Source: an uncultured Lachnospiraceae bacterium (lineage in GTDB: Bacteria; Bacillota; Clostridia; Lachnospirales; Lachnospiraceae). From it: 58,415 nucleotides of DNA. A program made the translations under genes and the position numbers. The DNA lies in the NCBI GenBank assembly GCA_947567595.1, contig CANOMQ010000024.1, positions 1 through 58,415 on the forward strand, in the 5' to 3' direction. This document shows positions 29,536-38,276 of this stretch, piece by piece; position 1 is the first letter of the stretch; each line of letters starts with the position of its first letter. The notes under the pieces were generated by a model. It was not told the DNA's origin, ran no database searches, and worked only from the letters and a program-made list of their open reading frames with translations.

Positions 29536-30852
29536 ATGAGAAACATTGCAAAGGCGGTTCAGTATGTCTGCTGTGGGCTTCTTCTTTTTGCCGCGGCAAA
29601 CTGCTATGCGCTTTGTCAGGATATCAAAATCATCGCATTGCTTTTGGGAGTATATATTGGTATCAATATTGCTCCCATATTTGTGCTGCCACGGACAAAA
29701 CGGTTAAGGGCATGCGCGCGCGGAAATGCGCTGTTAATCGAGTTTCTGATATCAACGGCGTGTTCCGTGGTGTATTTTCTACAAAGCCTGTTTTCTTCGC
29801 CTGATTGGAAGGCGATTTTGGTGAATACGCTGTTTGCGATTTTGCTTGAGGCAATCGTTTTTTGGAACGGCATTATCCGTGTGTATATCCGTTCGCAGCA
29901 GCTTGGCATCAAAATCCGTGTGATTGGAATCGTCTGTGGCTTAATTCCCGTTGCGCAGCTTATTGCGCTTGGGTTGATTATCCGCACGGTGTCAAAGGAG
30001 ATTGCGTTTGAAAACCGCCGTGTTCTTTTGGACGAGCAGCGAAAGGATTTGCGGATTTGCGCCACAAAATATCCGGTTTTGATGGTGCATGGCGTGTTTT
30101 TCCGGGATTTCCGGTATCTGAATTACTGGGGGCGGATTCCGGAGGCGCTGCAGAAGAATGGTGCGCGGATTTTTTATGGCAATCACCAGTCGGCAGCGGC
30201 GGTTGCGCAGAGCGGGCAGGAGATTTCGGACAGGATTTTGCAGATTGTTAAGGAAACGGGGTGTGAAAAGGTGAATATCATTGCACACTCCAAAGGGGGG
30301 CTTGATTGCAGGAGCGCCCTGACCAATCCGGAAATTGCGAAGCATGTGGCGACGCTGACGACGATTAACACGCCGCACAGGGGCTGCGAGTTTGCGGATT
30401 ATCTGCTGGATAAAATTCCAAAGGACGAGCAGGAGGTCGTGGCGGGGGCGTACAATGCGGCGCTTAGGCGGCTTGGCGATACCAGCCCTGATTTTATGGC
30501 GGCAGTGACAAACCTTACGGCATCGTTTTGCAAGGCGTTTAATGAGCGTGTTTTTGATGCGCAGGGGGTGTATTATCAAAGTATTGGTACGAAGCTGAAT
30601 AAGGCGTCGGGAGGGCGGTTTCCGCTGAATTTTACGTATCATCTGGCGCATTATTTTGACGGTGCAAATGACGGGCTTGTCGGGGAGGCTTCCTTTGCGT
30701 GGGGGGAGGATTACAGGCTTCTTACCGTGAACGGAAAGCGCGGCATATCGCACGGAGACATGATTGATTTGAACCGGGAAAATATCGAGGAGTTTGATGT
30801 CAGGGAATTTTATGTGCAGCTTGTGGCGGATTTAAAAAAGCGCGGATTCTAG
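29536..30852 (+). CDS. Membrane-anchored alpha/beta-hydrolase, triacylglycerol-lipase-like
   Basis: 438 aa. The first 160 residues hold about five hydrophobic segments (for example YVCCGLLLFAAANCYALC and IIALLLGVYIGINIAPIF). A hydrolase domain follows from about 185: PVLMVHGVFFRDFRYLNYWG (oxyanion HG), the nucleophile elbow IAHSKGGLD at about 248-256, and a late ANDGLVGEAS plus SHGD segment supplying plausible acid and histidine residues. It resembles class I lipases with an extra membrane anchor. The substrate is unknown. ATG 29536 has GGGGGAAGG upstream. The stop codon overlaps that of the convergent aroA inside a hairpin. Confidence 0.82.
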   Translation: MRNIAKAVQYVCCGLLLFAAANCYALCQDIKIIALLLGVYIGINIAPIFVLPRTKRLRACARGNALLIEFLISTACSVVYFLQSLFSSPDWKAILVNTLFAILLEAIVFWNGIIRVYIRSQQLGIKIRVIGIVCGLIPVAQLIALGLIIRTVSKEIAFENRRVLLDEQRKDLRICATKYPVLMVHGVFFRDFRYLNYWGRIPEALQKNGARIFYGNHQSAAAVAQSGQEISDRILQIVKETGCEKVNIIAHSKGGLDCRSALTNPEIAKHVATLTTINTPHRGCEFADYLLDKIPKDEQEVVAGAYNAALRRLGDTSPDFMAAVTNLTASFCKAFNERVFDAQGVYYQSIGTKLNKASGGRFPLNFTYHLAHYFDGANDGLVGEASFAWGEDYRLLTVNGKRGISHGDMIDLNRENIEEFDVREFYVQLVADLKKRGF

Positions 30853-30859
30853 TCCGCGC
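30840..30859 (-). terminator. aroA terminator with both stop codons in its loop
   Basis: GCGCGGA (30840-30846) pairs with TCCGCGC (30853-30859). On the minus strand it is followed by TTTTTT, so it terminates aroA. The loop contains CTAG (30849-30852), which supplies the stop codon of aroA on one strand and of the lipase gene on the other. Confidence 0.85.
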
Positions 30860-32150
30860 ATAATTGTTCCAGTACGTCAAAATATTCTTCAAAGGTCTTT
30901 TTGCAGCACATCGGATTTGCGATTTCGATTCCTTCAATTCTTAATCCAATCAGCGCAAATGCCATTGCCATACGGTGGTCGTCGTACGTTTGTACGATTC
31001 CGGCTTTGGGTGTGCCGGGGTGTATAGTGATTGCCGCATCTTCCTCTTCGCATTGAATGCCAAGTCTTGCAAGCTCTGTTGCAATGGCGTGAATGCGGTC
31101 TGATTCCTGTAGGCGGATATGCCCGATGTTTTCAATGCGCACGGGCGACTGGGCAAAGGGGGCTAGTGCGGCGAGTGTCATTGTCTGGTCGGAGAAATCC
31201 TTCATGTCTACGGTAATTCCTTTGATGCTTCCATTTTCTGCTCCCCTTACTTCAAGTCCCAAAGAGGTTTCCTGCACACTACAGCCAAGCCGTTCCAATA
31301 GCTTTATGAATTTCAAATCGCCCTGCATACAGTCCCATGTGACATGTTCGACGACTGCCCGTCCGCCTGTGAGCGCTGCCGCGGCATAGAAATAGCAGGC
31401 TGCGGAGACGTCAGGCTCGATTTGATAGGCGCCTGCCTTGTAGGAAATGCCTTGTGGCATGAGATAGCTTTCGCCGTCAAATGCTGTTTTTGCGCCAAAC
31501 TGTTCCATCATTTTTTGCGTGATTCGGATATAAGAGCCTTCTTTTCGTTCGCTTGTGATTTTGATGTGAAGTCCCCGCCCAAGCATTGGGGACACGAGCA
31601 TAAGTGCGCTTAGAAACTGCGTGCTTTTGCTGATGTCAAGCGTGATATGGAGGGGGGCGCTGGTGTCTGCTGTTTTGCCGATTCCCTGTATTTTTACCGG
31701 AAGAAAGCCCTCCTGACCGAGGTATGTGATTTTTGCGCCCATGCCTGTAAGGACGTCAAACAATGGCTTCATGGGGCGTTTTTGCATTTGCCCGGAGGCG
31801 TTGACGGTGAAGGTGCCTTTGGCGAGGGCGAGCATTGCGGTTAAAAAGCGTGCTGCCGTGCCTGCGCTGCCGACGTATATTTCGCCGCTTGTGACGGGAA
31901 TCTCGCCGTTTTGTCCGGTGACGGTGACTTCTTTTTTTTGTTCGTCTGCCGTTACGGAAAACCCGAGTGATTTGAGCGAGCCTAAAAAGTTTCTGGAATC
32001 GTCGCTGAATAATACGCCGCTTAGGCGCGTTGTCCCGTCTGCCAAAGCAGCCATTAAAAGTGCGCGGTTTGTCATGCTCTTGGAGCCGGGGACGCGGACG
32101 GCCCAATCTATTTTTTTGTGAAGTGTTTTTACGTGATAGGTGTTTTCCAT
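30849..32150 (-). CDS. aroA: 3-phosphoshikimate 1-carboxyvinyltransferase (EPSP synthase)
   Basis: 433-aa cytosolic enzyme of the shikimate pathway joining shikimate-3-phosphate and PEP. Motifs: VPGSKSMTNRALLMAAL near residue 20, GSAGTAARFLTAML near 93 (AARF where class I plant/E. coli enzymes have AMRP), QMQKRPMKPLFD near 120, LDISKSTQFLSALML near 170 and IRLQESDRIHAI with DDHRMAMAFAL near the end. The changed glyphosate-loop residues suggest a class II-like site, which is an inference from sequence. It is transcribed alone here, away from other aro genes. Confidence 0.95.
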   Translation of the reverse strand: MENTYHVKTLHKKIDWAVRVPGSKSMTNRALLMAALADGTTRLSGVLFSDDSRNFLGSLKSLGFSVTADEQKKEVTVTGQNGEIPVTSGEIYVGSAGTAARFLTAMLALAKGTFTVNASGQMQKRPMKPLFDVLTGMGAKITYLGQEGFLPVKIQGIGKTADTSAPLHITLDISKSTQFLSALMLVSPMLGRGLHIKITSERKEGSYIRITQKMMEQFGAKTAFDGESYLMPQGISYKAGAYQIEPDVSAACYFYAAAALTGGRAVVEHVTWDCMQGDLKFIKLLERLGCSVQETSLGLEVRGAENGSIKGITVDMKDFSDQTMTLAALAPFAQSPVRIENIGHIRLQESDRIHAIATELARLGIQCEEEDAAITIHPGTPKAGIVQTYDDHRMAMAFALIGLRIEGIEIANPMCCKKTFEEYFDVLEQLCAD

Positions 32151-32302
32151 TGTTTCCTCCGTGTGGATTTTGTTTTTTATTGTATGTTTAGTGTAGCATA
32201 TTTTTTTTCGTGCGACAATATTGAGATGTGTTTGCGGCTGGGGACAGGCATAGAATTTATGCGGTGTTAATATATTTTATAAAAAATAGTGCAGAGGTTT
32301 TC

Positions 32303-32674
32303 ATGTTGGGGAAAAGTGATGATAAATTGGACCGTCAGACGAGTGGTGTGCTGATACAGTATCTTCATGAATTGAGTGATTATTTAAGGGAGCGCAATTT
32401 GTCCAAAAAGGTCGTGACAATGGCGGTGGCGGTGCTGGTGTTGGCGGGGCTTACGGGGGTGCATTACAGGGCGTCAGGTTCACTGCTTCCGACAAGCGGG
32501 GCAGCGTCCAAGAGGGAACTGCCAATTTACTGTGTGCAGACGCAGGAGCCTAAAATCGCACTGACGTTCGACGCAGCTTGGGGCAATCAGGATACACAGA
32601 AAATTATGGAGATATTGAAGAAGCATGATGTGAAGGTGACGTTTTTTATGACAGGCGGGTGGGTGAGCATATAG
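32303..32674 (+). CDS. PdaB-type polysaccharide deacetylase, 5' part (interrupted by a mobile element)
   Basis: Intact codons run from ATG 32303 (MLGKSDDKLDRQTSG) through a membrane anchor VVTMAVAVLVLAGLTGV near residues 36-52 to the NodB-fold start IALTFDAAWGNQDTQ and VTFFMTGGWV. Three foreign codons then lead to TAG at 32672-32674. The part present holds the first NodB motif (TFDxxWG, typical of the PdaB/YlxY sporulation group) but lacks the HSxxH, RPPYG and later motifs, so the 123-aa product should be inactive. The missing part resumes at 35927. Joining 32665 to 35927 gives one 284-codon frame (GGWV then DTYPDDV). The gene starts after AGAGG. GCATA/TATGC symmetric bases lie about 45 bp upstream. 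Confidence 0.9.
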   Translation: MLGKSDDKLDRQTSGVLIQYLHELSDYLRERNLSKKVVTMAVAVLVLAGLTGVHYRASGSLLPTSGAASKRELPIYCVQTQEPKIALTFDAAWGNQDTQKIMEILKKHDVKVTFFMTGGWVSI

Positions 32675-32681
32675 GCATATC
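32657..32681 (+). other. attL junction
   Basis: Core GGGTGGGTG (32657-32665) within the codons for Gly-Trp-Val of the deacetylase, followed by eight bases and the element-side arm GGCATATC (32674-32681). Confidence 0.85.
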
Positions 32682-32846
32682 TGACAGTTTCATTGAAAAG
32701 TGTGTGAAAAGTATGCCATTTGGATAAAGCTCTTTTTTCGTGCTTCATTTTATGGTAGAATAGCAATGACAATAGTTTCATTCGTAAAATTCTTACAAAG
32801 ATGAAATCATATTTGGAAATACCATTTTTAGGAGGTGTACTGACGG

Positions 32847-34139
32847 ATGACGATGCTCAGGGATTTATCCATGCTGTGGTCGCTGTTTCATATTCTGATT
32901 CTTTTTATGCTGCTATACCGTTCCCGGTATCCGAGAAAGAAGACCTTTTTCCTCACAGGGATAACGATGGGCCCACTCGCCCTGCTGACGGTGGCAGGGC
33001 TTATGTACTATGGGGCGGAGTTTATGGGGAAGATTTTTATTTTGACTCTTACCCTGCCAAGTCTCTTGTTTTTTTGGTTCATGTCAAAGGATAAGAACGG
33101 AAAATTTTTCTTTACATTCTGTATGACAGACACGGTGGCGCTGTGGATTATTGCCGTGACAAACATCGGCGATTTTTATCTGGGTGGGCAGCAGTATGTT
33201 CTGATGTTTATCGGACGGCTCATACTGTTCCCGCTGACGGAGTGGGTGGCGTATCAGCATCTGCGAAAGCCCTACAGGGAATTGCAGGAATCGGTAGACA
33301 GCGGCTGGTGGCTTTTTGCGGGAATGACGGCAGTCTATTATGTCCTGCTTACCGTAACCGCCAACTTTCCCACAGTCGTGACAAAAAGGCAGGGGGAGCT
33401 TCCGGCATTTTTGCTGATACTGGTGCTGATGCCGATGACCTATGGCACAATCTTTGTGGCGATGTACCGCCAGCTTCTGCTTTCCCGCAGGCGTCAGAGC
33501 GAGCGGATTTTGCAGGAACACAAGAACACACTGGAGGCGCAGCTTGGCAGCCAGCAGAACATAAGAAAAATGAAGCACGACATGAAAGGCTACACGGTCA
33601 CGCTCTCCGGCTTGTTGATGGATGGGAAGCTTGACGAGGCAATGAAATACTTGCAGGGCATTGAGACAAAGATGGACACCCTGACAGGAGAGTATTGTGC
33701 CAATCCCTATATTAACGCGGTGCTTGTCCATTATGCCGAGGAGTTCAAAAAAATAGAAGCCAAATTCCAATATAACATACACATCGGGACGGAGGAACTG
33801 CCTTACATGGAGCTGTGCCAAATTCTCTCCAACGGGCTGGAGAATGCCTGCGACGCCCTAAAGGGGCTGGACAAGGAAAAACGGGAAGTTTCCGTACAGA
33901 TGCGGTATAACAGGAATTCTCTGCTGATACGCTTAAAGAATAAATGCCGTGATGATTTGTATGTGGCGCGGGGAGAACTGCCCGCCACGGATAAGGAGGG
34001 GCAGGAGCACGGCTTTGGTCTTGTCACGGTGCAGGAAGCGGCAGGACGCCTTGACGGGGATATTTTTTGCTATACGGAAGACGGAAATTTTGTACTGGAT
34101 GTGATGGTCTCGTGCAAGGCATTTTCGAAGGCTGGTTAG
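32847..34139 (+). CDS. AgrC-like GHKL-domain sensor histidine kinase (element cargo)
   Basis: 430-aa membrane kinase. Six or seven hydrophobic segments fill residues 1-215 (for example LFHILILFMLLY and MFIGRLILFPLTEW), then a helical linker, the phospho-acceptor motif MKHDMKGY near residue 242 (His 244), an N box QILSNGLENACDAL near 325-338 and a G box HGFGLVTVQEAAGRLDGD near 387. This is the HPK10/AgrC-type layout that senses peptides or other signals in Gram-positives. No response regulator or AgrBD pair is within the element, so it is an orphan. GGAGG lies 11 bases before the ATG. It is the largest cargo gene and lies 28 bp before the small 63-aa gene. Confidence 0.9.
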   Translation: MTMLRDLSMLWSLFHILILFMLLYRSRYPRKKTFFLTGITMGPLALLTVAGLMYYGAEFMGKIFILTLTLPSLLFFWFMSKDKNGKFFFTFCMTDTVALWIIAVTNIGDFYLGGQQYVLMFIGRLILFPLTEWVAYQHLRKPYRELQESVDSGWWLFAGMTAVYYVLLTVTANFPTVVTKRQGELPAFLLILVLMPMTYGTIFVAMYRQLLLSRRRQSERILQEHKNTLEAQLGSQQNIRKMKHDMKGYTVTLSGLLMDGKLDEAMKYLQGIETKMDTLTGEYCANPYINAVLVHYAEEFKKIEAKFQYNIHIGTEELPYMELCQILSNGLENACDALKGLDKEKREVSVQMRYNRNSLLIRLKNKCRDDLYVARGELPATDKEGQEHGFGLVTVQEAAGRLDGDIFCYTEDGNFVLDVMVSCKAFSKAG

Positions 34140-34150
34140 AGGGATATGAT

Positions 34151-34184
34151 GACAGGTAACAACAGGAATGAAATGTTACCTGTC
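34151..34184 (+). promoter_or_regulatory. Hairpin enclosing the start codon of the 63-aa gene
   Basis: GACAGGTAAC (34151-34160) and GTTACCTGTC (34175-34184) are perfect 10-bp complements around a 14-nt loop. The loop contains the weak AACAGGA ribosome site and the ATG at 34168-34170. It could gate translation or act as a protein operator. There is no T-run, so it is not a typical terminator of the kinase gene. Confidence 0.75.
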
Positions 34185-34359
34185 CCAATATATTAGTAGT
34201 AATTCTTCTCAAAGCGGGGCATTGCGTGTGAAGGAAGTGCTTCAGGACATTTCGGACGAGGATGAGCGGGTGGTAGTCCGGTATTTGTTGGACATTATGA
34301 GGACGCACGGTATCATTACAGAGGAAGAGTATCGTGCGGTTTTGTATCAATCTCGTTAG
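34168..34359 (+). CDS. Small acidic protein between kinase and recombinase (SHOCT-like end)
   Basis: 63 aa (MKCYLSQYISSNSSQSGALR, then VKEVLQDISDEDERVVVRYL and a C-terminal THGIITEEEYRAVLYQ). The ending GIITEEEY resembles the short SHOCT motif found at protein C-termini, usually LK..G.IT..EF. A GTG at 34228 in the same frame is an alternative start that would give 43 residues. Its stop codon lies within the AGGAG used by the recombinase, so the two are translationally coupled. Position suggests a helper of the recombinase, for example a directionality factor, but nothing in the sequence proves it. Confidence 0.7.
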   Translation: MKCYLSQYISSNSSQSGALRVKEVLQDISDEDERVVVRYLLDIMRTHGIITEEEYRAVLYQSR

Positions 34360-34374
34360 GAGCAGTGTATTTGT

Positions 34375-35940
34375 ATGGAAGACATCAAACCAAGAGCCGT
34401 ATTTTACGCTAGGGTAAGCACAGAGGAGGAAGAACAGCTCAATGCAATTCAGAAACAAATTGAAGAAAACAAGGAAGTAATCAGCCAGAAAAACTGGATT
34501 TTAGTGGATGATTACATTGATAAGGGAATAACAGGCACACAGGCAAGGAAGCGCAACGAATACATCAGGCTGCTTGAGGACATTCAAAGAGATAAATTTG
34601 ACATCATCGTGGCAAAGGACCAGTCGCGCCTGCAGCGCAACACAATGGACTGGTACCTGTTTTTAAATGAAATTGTCCAAAATCAGAAAAAGCTGTATTT
34701 ATATTTGGAGAATACGTTCTTTGATCCGAAAGACAAGTTTATTTTTGGAATTAAGGCAATGATGGCAGAGGAGTACAGCCGTGATTTGAGCAGGAAAGGC
34801 AATGCGGCGAAGAAAAGGAGGCAGGAAAAGGGAAAGCCGATTATCACAAACCGCACATGGGGCTTTCGAAATGTGAATGGTGAAATCCTGATAGATGAAG
34901 AAGAGGCGAAGCTTGTAAAGCATATTTATGAGCTTTTTGCAGATGGCTTTGGGGGGCGCGCTGCTGCAAGATTACTGCGGGAGGAAGGCGTTCGAAACAG
35001 AAACGGCAAAACGTTGTCCGAAAATACCATACGCGAAATTGTAAAAAATCCGCTCTACAAGGGGATTGCGGTTATGAATAAGGAGCATTTTGACTTTGAG
35101 GCAAAAAAGATAATCAAAAATCCGCAGAGCGAATGGATTTATCGAAAAGGGCTTGTGCCGCAGATGATTTCAGATGCGTTATGGGAAAAGGCAAATGCGC
35201 AGATAAACAGTAGAAAAACGGTAGACAGGACACATAATGTCGGTATTAATAAAGGGAATGCTTTGCTTTCATCAAAGATTATTTGTGGCGAATGTGACTC
35301 AAAATATTGGAGAAACAAAAGAAAGCAAGGTATTTATTGGTATTGCAGTGAAGGGGCGCGCTCCAAATGCGCGTCTTTAAATCTGAAAGAAGATGAAGTC
35401 CTGTTTTTGATAGAACGGATAGGAAATCAACTGATTGCGGAAGAGACAAGAGAGGAAGTATTGCGGAAAGCCATTCTGAAAATTCATGCCGCGCTGTCTG
35501 GTAATGCCAATATAGGGGAAAGCATAGAAGACATACAGGCACAGAAGGAGAAGCTGGGCAGAAGAAAAGATACGCTTATGGACTTTTTATTAGATGGGAC
35601 GATTACAAAATCCGATTATACTGCTAAAATGGATGACATGGCAAAACAGATTGCTTTGCTGAATGAAAAGGAAATAAGAGTACAGGAAAAGAAGGAAGAA
35701 AAGGGCGAACTACTGGAACGGCTGGACAAAGTGCGGGCATTATTTCAAAATAAAACGGAGAAGGGAATAGCGGTTCCTTTGATGTGCGCCCATATCAAAC
35801 AGATAAAAGTATATGAAAACCGTTTGGACATTTACCTTGATTTTTTAAAGGAGGCAGAATGTCTTACCGTAAGCTATGGAAAAACGGGCAGGAAGGGAAG
35901 TTACGATATGCCCATTTGGGTGGGTGGACACTTACCCTGA
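34375..35940 (+). CDS. Large serine recombinase (site-specific integrase)
   Basis: 521 aa. Resolvase catalytic domain (1-150) with the nucleophile in YARVSTEEEEQ (Ser 15) and the DRSR-like motif AKDQSRLQRNT near 80; a recombinase domain (about 160-290, RTWGFRNVNGEILIDEEEA, then GGRAAARLLREEGVRNRNGK); a zinc ribbon near 302-330 (IICGECDSKYW with YCSEGARSKC); and a long coiled coil near 385-455. This is the large serine integrase layout used by phages and skin-type elements. The ribosome site AGGAG lies 13 bases upstream. The last four codons and stop (GHLP, TGA) belong to the target gene beyond the att core, so the C-terminus depends on the integration state. Confidence 0.93.
   Translation: MEDIKPRAVFYARVSTEEEEQLNAIQKQIEENKEVISQKNWILVDDYIDKGITGTQARKRNEYIRLLEDIQRDKFDIIVAKDQSRLQRNTMDWYLFLNEIVQNQKKLYLYLENTFFDPKDKFIFGIKAMMAEEYSRDLSRKGNAAKKRRQEKGKPIITNRTWGFRNVNGEILIDEEEAKLVKHIYELFADGFGGRAAARLLREEGVRNRNGKTLSENTIREIVKNPLYKGIAVMNKEHFDFEAKKIIKNPQSEWIYRKGLVPQMISDALWEKANAQINSRKTVDRTHNVGINKGNALLSSKIICGECDSKYWRNKRKQGIYWYCSEGARSKCASLNLKEDEVLFLIERIGNQLIAEETREEVLRKAILKIHAALSGNANIGESIEDIQAQKEKLGRRKDTLMDFLLDGTITKSDYTAKMDDMAKQIALLNEKEIRVQEKKEEKGELLERLDKVRALFQNKTEKGIAVPLMCAHIKQIKVYENRLDIYLDFLKEAECLTVSYGKTGRKGSYDMPIWVGGHLP
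35905..35926 (+). other. attR junction
   Basis: Element-side arm GATATGCC (35905-35912), five bases, then the core GGGTGGGTG (35918-35926) and the resumed deacetylase codons. It lies within the 3' end of the recombinase gene. Confidence 0.85.
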
Positions 35941-36418
35941 CGACGTTAAGATGATTTACGGCGAAGGACATGACCTTGGAAATCACAGTCAGAACCACAA
36001 AAACATGAGCCAGCTTTCCGATGCCGAAAAGGAAACCGAACTGATGAGCGTCCACGATAAGGTAAAAGCACTGACAGGCTATGACATGTTCCTGTTCCGG
36101 CCGCCTTATGGCGACTATGACAACGCAGTCGTATCAACGGCAAAAAAGTGTGGGTATTATGCGATACAATGGGACGTTGACAGTCTTGACTGGAAGGACT
36201 ACGGCGTTGAGTCCATTATCAATACGGTAACACAGAACGAGCACCTTGGAAACGGCAGCATCATTCTCTGCCACAATGGGGCAAAATACACCGCAGAAGC
36301 GCTTGACACCCTGATAACCACATTAAAGGATGCGGGTTATACATTTGTGCCGCTCTCGGAACTGATTTATCGGGACGGGTACCATATGGATCACGAGGGA
36401 AGACAGATAAAGGATTAA
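35927..36418 (+). CDS. PdaB-type polysaccharide deacetylase, 3' part (separated by the mobile element)
   Basis: 163 codons continuing the deacetylase after the insertion: DTYPDDVKMIYGEGHDLGNH, the metal-site LGNHSQNHKNMSQLS, RPPYGDYDNAV, AIQWDVDSLDWKDYGVESI and IILCHNGAKYTAEALDTL. These are NodB motifs 2 to 5 in order. No ribosome binding site precedes it, and the nearest upstream ATG (35876) lies in recombinase sequence, so the part is probably silent unless the element is excised. The restored 284-aa protein would be a membrane-anchored deacetylase of the PdaB sporulation group, implicated in spore cortex peptidoglycan. It ends six bases before a strong bidirectional terminator. Confidence 0.88.
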   Translation, partial: DTYPDDVKMIYGEGHDLGNHSQNHKNMSQLSDAEKETELMSVHDKVKALTGYDMFLFRPPYGDYDNAVVSTAKKCGYYAIQWDVDSLDWKDYGVESIINTVTQNEHLGNGSIILCHNGAKYTAEALDTLITTLKDAGYTFVPLSELIYRDGYHMDHEGRQIKD

Positions 36419-36423
36419 AAAAT

Positions 36424-36456
36424 AAAAACCCCTGCCATTTTGTGGCAGGGGTTTTT
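36424..36456. terminator. Bidirectional terminator after the deacetylase and the minus-strand lipoprotein
   Basis: AAAAACCCCTGCCA (36424-36437) pairs with TGGCAGGGGTTTTT (36443-36456), a perfect 14-bp stem with a TTTTG loop and U-runs for both strands. Confidence 0.95.
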
Positions 36457-36480
36457 GTGCTATATCGCAAATTACAAAAA

Positions 36481-36828
36481 TTAGTTTGCAGCAGCAGTTG
36501 TCTCAACTTCTGTCGTCTCAGCCTCAACATTAGCCGCGTCAGCAGTAGCAGTCTCAACCTCTGTAGCCTCAGCATCAGCCGCGTCAGCAGTAGTCGTCTC
36601 AACCTCTGTCGTCTCAGCATCAGCCGCATCAGCAGTAGTCGTCTCAACCTCTGTAGCCTCAACTGTCGTCTCAACAGGTGTCGTCTCAGCAGGTGTTGTC
36701 TCTGACTCTGATACAACAGACTCATTTACGTTTGTATCAACAGTCTCATCTGATGCAGAACCGCAAGCGGTAAGCATGGCAGCGCCTAATGTAAGTGTCA
36801 TGATTGCTGTTAAAAGTTTCTTTTTCAT
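36481..36828 (-). CDS. Small acidic repeat lipoprotein
   Basis: 115 aa. Signal peptide MKKKLLTAIMTLTLGAAMLT with lipobox MLTAC (Cys 22). The remainder is almost only Thr, Glu, Ala, Val, Asp and Ser, with a 15-residue repeat (TEVETTTADAADAET) in about three and a half copies from residue 59 to the end. It should be an extended, strongly acidic, possibly glycosylated cell-surface stalk. No enzymatic domain is present. GGAGGAG precedes the ATG. It has a strong promoter and a 100-nt structured leader, so it is probably highly expressed. Confidence 0.85.
   Translation of the reverse strand: MKKKLLTAIMTLTLGAAMLTACGSASDETVDTNVNESVVSESETTPAETTPVETTVEATEVETTTADAADAETTEVETTTADAADAEATEVETATADAANVEAETTEVETTAAAN
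36484..36654 (-). repeat. 45-bp coding tandem repeat
   Basis: Two exact-length 45-bp units, one 51-bp unit and a partial unit encode TEVETTTADAADAET-type repeats in the lipoprotein. Copy number could vary between strains by slippage. Confidence 0.8.
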
Positions 36829-36962
36829 AATTTATTCTCCTCCTTGCGCTTAATGCGCGTGCTCAAATTGAGCAAGTTTTTGTTCGGGCATGTTCACGCC
36901 CGTGGTGTAATATGTTTCTGCCTTACAATTAACCATTATACAGAAAAACGCAGGAAGGTCAA
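36829..36962 (-). promoter_or_regulatory. Promoter and hairpin-rich leader of the repeat lipoprotein
   Basis: On the minus strand TTGACC (36962-36957) and TATAAT (36940-36935) are 16 bp apart. The leader of about 100 nt contains three small hairpins: GGGC/GCCC arms at 36886-36901, TGCTCAA/TTGAGCA at 36860-36874 and GCGC/GCGC at 36846-36858. The GGAGGAG follows. The remaining stretch 36963-37084 is AT-rich and holds only the symmetric TATGCAC/GTGCATA pair at 37019-37039. Confidence 0.65.
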
Positions 36963-37084
36963 TAAAAAAAGTATAAAATGTTCAAAATTTGTTTACAATT
37001 TGTTCATAATCTCAATTCTATGCACTTTTTTTGTGCATATTTCAAAAAGAAGAACGTCAAATAGTAAGAAATAATAATTATTTT

Positions 37085-37113
37085 TTGTTGATTTTTTACA
37101 ATAATCGTACTAT
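37085..37113 (+). promoter_or_regulatory. Candidate promoter of the plus-strand lipoprotein
   Basis: TTGTTG (37085-37090), 17-bp spacer, TACTAT (37108-37113), about 90 bp before the chosen start. Confidence 0.5.
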
Positions 37114-37205
37114 GATGATACTAATCAAGTGACACATTAGGCAATATGACAAAGAACATCGATAAAATAAAACCATATATTCGAAAAAATGGAGAGACGC
37201 ATAGC

Positions 37206-38276
37206 ATGTTAAAACAAAACGAACAACGAAGCATAATGATGACAATGATAATGACGCTGCTATCCTGTATCCTGCTGACCGCCTGCACGAAGCAGGAAAC
37301 AGCTCCGGCAAAGGACGCAGAGACAATCACGGAGGAAGAAAGCAGCACCATATATGATGGTTTGGTGGAAAATCCACAGCCGAATGCAGAAAAAAACGCA
37401 TACAACACCCTGAATGTTGCGACGTACATCACAAAGGCGGACGATACGTATTTTATCGCGGACTGTTACCACGACCAGATTATCTACAGCGATACATTGG
37501 AGCAGCCGCTGACCGAATGGCACGTCCTTACAGACGCGGTGCATTACGCGCACACAATCGCTTTTGACGGCACAACGCTTCTCATTGACGACACGGAAAA
37601 TAACAGACTGCTCGCTTTTCAAAAAATAGACAAAAATTATGTAAACACACAAATACTGGACGAAATCGGAATGAAGCCGCACTTTGTCCAATATGATGCA
37701 AAAAGGCAGGTATTCATGGCGTGGAGCTCCATCACAGGAGAGCTTTATTTGGTAAAACGCGCCAAAACGCCAAATGAACAAGGCATCTATCCATTATATA
37801 TAGAAGATATCCTGAAAATAGACGAGCTTTACGGTGTGTATGTGCGTTCCTTCACGCTTATGGACGACACAATCTACTTTGTATCCGGTCATAACAATCA
37901 GAAGCTCTTAAAGGCGGACATCGTGGAACAGGACAACAAAATCCGCCTTGAAATCACAGCGCGCTACGACGTGCCGGACAAGCTTGCGGGAATGGTGCAG
38001 CTCTACAAAATACAGGATTATTATTATATAACGATATCAACCGACAACACGGAAAATCAGGATTATGCCACCATCATCAGGACAAAAAACCTTGACGGGC
38101 TAAATACGGGGGATTATGAGGAGCTTTACGCGGATTTTGGGCTAAGCGGCGGAACGCCTTATTATATCAACGAAATCGAAGGCAGATATTACATGACGCA
38201 TCATAGGACGGACGAAAATATCATTGCCTTCGATGTGATTGACAACACGATAGAAAACGTGGCAGTCGTTTACTGA
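37206..38276 (+). CDS. Lipoprotein of unknown function, beta-propeller-like
   Basis: 356 aa from ATG 37206, chosen because GGAGAG lies nine bases upstream; an ATG at 37146 is also in frame. The signal MMTMIMTLLSCILLTAC ends in lipobox LLTAC. The mature part has repeating short beta segments (NTLNVATYITKADDTYFIAD, TIAFDGTTLLIDDTENNRL, SFTLMDDTIYFVSGHN, YITISTDN) that look like propeller blades. I do not recognise a named family. It ends 3 bp before the convergent stop of the polytopic membrane protein. Confidence 0.75.
   Translation: MLKQNEQRSIMMTMIMTLLSCILLTACTKQETAPAKDAETITEEESSTIYDGLVENPQPNAEKNAYNTLNVATYITKADDTYFIADCYHDQIIYSDTLEQPLTEWHVLTDAVHYAHTIAFDGTTLLIDDTENNRLLAFQKIDKNYVNTQILDEIGMKPHFVQYDAKRQVFMAWSSITGELYLVKRAKTPNEQGIYPLYIEDILKIDELYGVYVRSFTLMDDTIYFVSGHNNQKLLKADIVEQDNKIRLEITARYDVPDKLAGMVQLYKIQDYYYITISTDNTENQDYATIIRTKNLDGLNTGDYEELYADFGLSGGTPYYINEIEGRYYMTHHRTDENIIAFDVIDNTIENVAVVY

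Follow-up and report, generated by a model that had tools for sequence, protein, structure and literature searches.

pdaB of Lachnospiraceae as a recurrent insertion site of compact serine-recombinase elements

Genes of spore formation are interrupted in several bacteria by intervening elements, and the targets named in the parts of the reports on which we draw here and below are sigK, spsM, spoVFB, gerE and yabG (PMC5595907, PMC5025042, PMC10747680). The present analysis concerns a 3,261-bp element with a large serine recombinase that interrupts a pdaB-type deacetylase gene in DNA of an uncultured Lachnospiraceae bacterium (contig CANOMQ010000024.1, positions 1 to 58,415; this whole stretch of 58,415 nucleotides is referred to as the window), together with related loci in its genus and family.

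The gin element in gerE of Bacillus cereus ATCC10987 resembles the pdaB element in being non-phage, in using serine recombinases with a 9-bp overlap and in splitting a mother-cell gene; it differs in its size of 28.6 kb, its three recombinases, its target gerE and in an excision that was shown experimentally (PMC5595907), whereas for the pdaB element we infer excision. The skin-Cd element in sigK of Clostridioides difficile shares the three Pfam domains of its large serine recombinase with the pdaB element and interrupts a host gene that acts in the terminal mother cell, but is prophage-like, targets sigK and has a demonstrated directionality factor and sigma-E/SpoIIID control (PMC5025042). 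The yin element in yabG of Clostridium botulinum is likewise an intervening element in a clostridial spore gene, but it is prophage-like, comes from one isolate, was observed to excise and form a circle, and is not required for sporulation (PMC10747680). SP-beta in spsM (PMC4191935) and vfbin in spoVFB (PMC10747680), a prophage and a prophage-like element, also interrupt spore genes, but differ in being phage-derived and in their targets; excision of SP-beta rebuilds spsM during sporulation (PMC4191935). Sporulation-time excision has been reported for skin and gin (PMC5025042, PMC5595907) and growth-phase-dependent excision for yin (PMC10747680).

The choice of pdaB as the target, the hotspot with multiple insertion points and the genes in multiple pieces described below go beyond the cases named in those papers, and a literature search by titles and the openings of abstracts, in a collection without bioRxiv preprints and with few subscription journals, turned up no report of a pdaB interruption. 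We consider the pdaB elements to be sporulation-gene intervening elements, most likely excised in the mother cell; both excision and its timing are what we infer, and the probability given to this reading is about two in three.

The split gene and its element

The reading frame of the deacetylase breaks at 32665 and resumes at 35927, and the 3,261 bp in between (32666..35926, + strand) include one copy of the core. The 5' half of pdaB (32303..32665, +) encodes residues 1-121, through the codons GGWV, and the 3' half (35927..36418, +) residues 122-284 plus the stop; joined, the halves give an open reading frame (ORF) of 855 nt and 284 amino acids (aa) with zero internal stops, in which GGWV is followed at the junction by DTYPDDV. 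A single gene is split, with the reading frame kept on both sides, and a short direct repeat of 9 bp, GGGTGGGTG, is found at both edges of the element as the left core (attL, 32657..32665, +) and the right core (attR, 35918..35926, +). The break, the resumption, the repeated core and the 284-aa join, all put forward in the original prediction, were confirmed. Against the profile TIGR02764 (PdaB) the 5' half matches positions 1-44 and the 3' half 43-191, and an intact counterpart with 91% identity across residues 1-284 is present in genome G002. A second, true PdaB in the same genome, named beforehand as a finding that would speak against a switch, was not found at E 1e-30, the other matches listed being 38% and 36% identical.

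The element holds three genes, all co-oriented with pdaB: a GHKL sensor histidine kinase of 430 aa (32847..34139, +; HATPase_c_5, 3.3e-17), carried as orphan cargo; an ORF of 63 aa (34168..34359, +), ending VVVRYLLDIMRTHGIITEEEY and without a Pfam match; and a large serine recombinase of 521 aa (34375..35940, +) with Resolvase, Recombinase and Zn-ribbon domains (PF00239, PF07508, PF13408). Ser15 of the recombinase, which we take to be the catalytic serine, is invariant in a four-row alignment (A1). The cores, these domains and the restored frame support the earlier view that a large serine recombinase inserted the element precisely and in a manner that looks reversible, and in its structure the element is an intervening element. 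In the reconstructed attachment site of the free element (attP), the left inner arm GGCATATC (32674..32681, +) and the right inner arm GATATGCC (35905..35912, +) were read from the sequence, and the arms match at 13/24 positions about a central GG. Of two centres tried, the GG in TGGGT did better, and with it 13 to 17 of the 24 positions match in seven of eight elements; in the eighth (L151) 5/24 match and the pattern was probably mis-anchored.

The frame of the recombinase crosses the right core and ends at 35940 within the 3' half of pdaB (35918-35940 in all), which it likewise enters through the core in all 16 loci examined. In the circle junctions computed for G000 and G009 the C-terminus of the recombinase would change, the G000 circle encoding 537 instead of 521 aa; the run of this frame into pdaB is a regularity without an explanation so far. 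Both this feature and the kinase (32847-34139) were missing from the earlier account. Pfam-level annotation, with PHROGs not searched, recognised no phage structural or replication genes in the 3.26 kb, and a scan of IMG/VR with the recombinase alignment returned five loci with a best identity of 38%; a phage origin of the element was rejected for lack of support.

pdaB as an insertion hotspot

A contig scan with an alignment of four recombinases identified 19 loci with 67 to 81% identity, 20 with that of the window, and every one of the 20 is located in pdaB; insertion into this gene is therefore more than chance. The 3' part of pdaB follows in frame directly after the recombinase in 17/20, and in L144 and L146 a short pdaB piece follows it, broken again at about residue 135. 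The element of L155 is inverted relative to pdaB and adjoins the 5' half. Rejoining pdaB at the 20 junctions gave a stop-free, in-frame gene in 19, L144 being scored out of frame because its right piece was cut at an arbitrary base; the joins were picked by best score and therefore show compatibility and are not a blind test. The expectation that many hosts would offer the site, since the core lies in the conserved G-W-V codons, was borne out, the same point being found in many genomes. Public relatives of the recombinase come from records mostly labelled Lachnospiraceae, and the lineage was found in 0/195 other genomes of the wider order at E 1e-150. Among the carriers of the site-B element are Bacterium C-53, Bacterium 0.1xD8-71, Lachnospiraceae bacterium 1XD21-87 and IMSAGC_011, none of them labelled a MAG in its record title. 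A related recombinase (47% identity over the N-terminal part), a 616-aa ORF common to G000 (C27:28308-29258, L047) and G002 (C13, L051), belongs to a group with no adjoining pdaB. A small ORF similar to that of the window, with a shared C-terminal motif, lies beside the recombinase in 14/20 loci by motif scan, and an alignment of 19 loci places the block also in L142, L152 and L153 and finds it absent from L151 and L158; the 63-aa ORF is a candidate excision or directionality factor.

By our own classification of 38 genus genomes, 19 carry pdaB intact and 14 interrupted, and in the other five no match at E 1e-30 rose above the level of paralogues; among these five is G016, which is 99% complete and SpoIVA-positive. 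Both halves, or foreign DNA at the break, were found in 12 of the 14 interrupted genomes: the halves lie on one contig in G000, G009, G013 and G033 and on two contigs in G005, G006, G028 and G029, and one half is joined to foreign DNA in G014, G024, G025 and G034. In G012 and G023 pdaB merely stops at a contig end. Among the controls, SpoIVA was matched in 36/38 genomes and aroA, at E 1e-30, in 34/38, neither of them ever in two pieces and each with one partial match; all 14 pdaB-interrupted genomes are SpoIVA-positive.

Contigs of three genomes (G028:C29, G012:C24, G023:C195) end within or beside the core, as would be seen where the assembly forks between filled and empty sites or where strains are mixed. 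Such ends would also be expected if the element left and re-entered the gene at a low rate during growth, so that the population would be mixed in the style of phase variation or active lysogeny without sporulation control, although strain mixtures would give the same picture. The yin element in yabG offers a parallel, since both forms coexist in cultures carrying it (PMC10747680). This account is nevertheless improbable: none of the 38 genus genomes has a full-length pdaB as well as a split one, and phage serine integrases need a directionality factor for excision (PMC5595907).

The family survey extends the pattern. PdaB is matched at E 1e-45 in 158/397 Lachnospiraceae genomes, and at least 16 of them, including that of the window, show among the matches listed a pdaB piece that starts or ends at a recurrent site. 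From the 15 other split family loci fetched, both halves were recovered in seven and one half in eight; in these eight the interruption is therefore deduced from the point at which homology stops. Insertion points seen from both sides are A (W94, codons TFDAAWG), B (W120-V121, GGWV), C (about G183, RPPYG) and D (about 209, WDVDSLDW), and a probable fifth, E (about G135, GHDLGNH), is seen from one side in two loci; we take these motifs to be those of the NodB family. The recombinases detected by BLAST at A and C share 23 to 25% identity with that of the window, and the D element has a recombinase-like ORF recognised by eye and missed by BLAST. Judged by sequence comparison, pdaB of the family has four insertion points and probably a fifth, all in conserved motifs and used by distantly related recombinases.

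Elements lying between two halves measure 1.5 to 12.6 kb, the smallest with a BLAST-detected recombinase being 2.35 kb (L144). In L157 pdaB is in three pieces on a single contig, with a site-A and a site-B element and the register kept, and in L141, L148, L144 and L146 the gene breaks again (at D or E); the last pieces of these four lie outside the fetched DNA, and they may genuinely have lost the 3' end. Besides the split pdaB, an additional unsplit PdaB-like gene is present in G300:C32 and in L139 (G287), directly downstream in the latter.

The multiplicity of breaks bears on the idea that the halves work as separate polypeptides, the 3' half being translated from a start inside the element. 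The 3' frame is indeed open upstream into the element, with an ATG at 35876, but the register is kept at every one of the four or five break positions, and the aspartate motif (TFDAAWG) is in the 5' piece while the His and Arg motifs, whose functional roles like that of the aspartate motif are assumed by us, are in the 3' piece. We give this idea hardly any credence.

Link to sporulation and selection on the detached halves

SpoIVA is present in 151/158 PdaB-positive family genomes (positive at E 1e-45; two SpoIVA matches under the cut-off were dropped) versus 105/239 PdaB-negative ones (p 8e-30), and in 16/16 split family genomes among the matches listed. For Bacillus subtilis, a table of sporulation mutants assigns pdaB (spoVIE) to the sigma-E regulon and gives it a value of 5, presumably per cent sporulation (PMC4703394), and muramic lactam is lost in a pdaB mutant, as cited in a 2018 paper (PMC6037195). 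By homology, the Lachnospiraceae gene is predicted to be a mother-cell gene of the spore cortex.

Selection was examined in 77 sequences over residues 122-208, comprising 47 intact genes and 30 split at A or B. The split set consists of 16 of the 20 site-B loci, with L144, L146 and L152 (incomplete) and L155 (inverted, no 3' part) left out, and 14 site-A loci, the site C and D genomes being excluded. Decay of the 3' part, named beforehand as another finding that would speak against a switch, was not seen, all 30 split parts being free of stop codons over 87 codons. In a two-omega codon model on an IQ-TREE topology, omega (the ratio of nonsynonymous to synonymous rates) was 0.039 on split terminal branches and 0.048 on the rest, and omega=1 on the split branches was worse by 922 in twice the log-likelihood difference (2dlnL), with kappa and background values held fixed; pairwise values agree. 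Split branches include time before insertion, and omega is therefore a mixture in which earlier selection is part of the signal. On these codon comparisons, the detached 3' halves appear to be under purifying selection, with no relaxation seen.

Several observations weigh against excision in the mother cell as we propose it. No empty pdaB copy was present in the window's own genome assembly, and no excised gene or circle was seen. PdaB is the top-scoring NCBIfam model for the joined protein, yet at 215.9 bits it remains under the curated cut-off of 237.4, as does the intact orthologue (216.7 bits vs 237.4). The 105 SpoIVA-positive genomes without a PdaB match at E 1e-45 mean that some sporulators either do without PdaB or carry one that was missed. 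A search for CATAnAnT on the + strand within the element found none, and a mother-cell promoter within it was rejected on that ground. The left piece has a Cys codon at the Trp94 position in G005 and G421, and stops are flagged inside the split matches of G028, G034, G013, G014 and the G029 5' piece; where inspected, these fall past the junction in element DNA. L131 (G261) has a 1.47-kb site-A insert with one 425-aa ORF and without a detected recombinase, so that any excision there would need an enzyme from elsewhere.

The remaining points concern the age of the insertions. Distances of recombinases and pdaB 3' halves are not correlated (Mantel r 0.09, p 0.25, 16 loci), the recombinases of L141 and L147 are closer than their pdaB (proportion of synonymous differences, pS, 0.22 vs 0.53), and the 3' part of G009 is 97.7% identical to that of the intact G021 over 87 codons, with synonymous differences only (pS 0.12). 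As the sequences suggest, the elements move horizontally between hosts and re-insert, some being younger than their hosts' split; vertical inheritance of a single old insertion was rejected as a general account, since recombinase and pdaB distances disagree. Because of this movement, and because some split 3' parts are nearly identical to intact ones, the insertions may be too young for decay, and the argument from selection is weaker for it. The claim that the insertion is not random accordingly stands for the site, but not for selection of a switch by the host.

Horizontal turnover and near-identical 3' parts would also be expected if a site-specific mobile element merely inactivates pdaB through recent, recurrent insertions, with the loss tolerated or sporulation poor and no regulation involved, and the five genus genomes in which pdaB was not found, G016 included, point the same way. 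Such inactivation is hard to reconcile with an interrupted gene in 14/38 genus genomes and zero stops in the 30 A- or B-split 3' parts family-wide, with aroA, the sole non-sporulation gene tested, never being in two pieces, and with the double insertion of L157 keeping register. Furthermore, in the clade of five genomes that are all split (L141, L147, L148, L151 and L158) omega is 0.040 on eight branches and omega=1 is worse by 2dlnL 244. Simple inactivation is thus rather unlikely, and excision in the mother cell remains the preferred reading.

Flanking sequences, cargo and proposed excision

Upstream of pdaB lies a promoter-like region (32249..32278, +), with CATAGAAT at 32249-32256 and AATATATTTT at 32269-32278. 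Among 25 genus sequences, CATA occurs in 25/25 and AATATAT in 23 to 25/25 at a fixed 20-nt offset, L054 and L088 having been anchored on a different CATA; the pattern CATA-N16-AATATAT is kept in nearly all and is promoter-like, with no sigma factor assigned. The CATAnAAT upstream of pdaB resembles what we take to be the sigma-E/sigma-K -10 consensus. The aroA gene (30849-32150) is divergent from pdaB and adjoins its start at 32303. Downstream, a terminator-like hairpin with a 14-pair stem (36424..36456; unstranded, listed on the - strand) is followed closely by the gene of a 115-aa protein with Thr/Ala/Glu repeats, whose start resembles that of a lipoprotein (36481-36828, - strand). An Rfam scan of 30000-38000 gave 0 matches, and a known RNA element at the locus was rejected.

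Six relatives of the cargo kinase (L163) with 64-68% identity occur elsewhere in the genus; ORFs resembling response regulators lie close to the ones in G009 and G037, and the G009 kinase adjoins a LytTR-like response regulator, all judged by eye. A partner regulator in the window's own genome was rejected, the best match to the G009 regulator being 36%. For the contigs of G009 and G006 a defence cargo was also rejected, as PADLOC gave one weak match among eight proteins (2TM effector, E 0.0062); near, and perhaps inside, the G006 element, a protein that has pentapeptide repeats and matches STAND-type NTPases weakly is no more than suggestive.

In the mechanism proposed, the large serine recombinase would recognise the GGWV codons of pdaB and insert the element by conservative recombination, probably at the GG dinucleotide inside TGGGT, leaving the halves in register. 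Precise excision in the terminally differentiating mother cell would rebuild pdaB for cortex maturation, and the forespore chromosome would keep the element and pass it on. The small ORF beside the recombinase may act as the directionality factor, which phage serine recombinases need for excision (PMC5595907). As a guess, read-through from the pdaB promoter in sporulation could switch the recombinase on, which is conceivable because all element genes in the window copy point the same way as pdaB.

A broader proposal, which we hold tentatively and at a little short of even odds, is that pdaB of Lachnospiraceae is a gene in pieces, a landing pad for several distantly related serine recombinases in different motifs and sometimes for two elements, so that the mother cell must splice its DNA two or more times for one cortex enzyme; the mother cell, doomed in any case, would give the elements a way out at no cost, and their cargo would be varied (kinases, transporters, possible defence genes).

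These loci add a further spore gene, struck repeatedly at four or five motif positions by compact elements in a family rich in gut spore formers. As natural replicates, they let one ask how integrases come to target mother-cell genes and how excision is timed, and the two-element pdaB whether the two excisions that it would need are coordinated with each other. With its defined core and attP arms, the recombinase lineage may also serve DNA integration in laboratory strains. The recurrent splitting of pdaB suggests a switch at the level of DNA that is used in spore formation.

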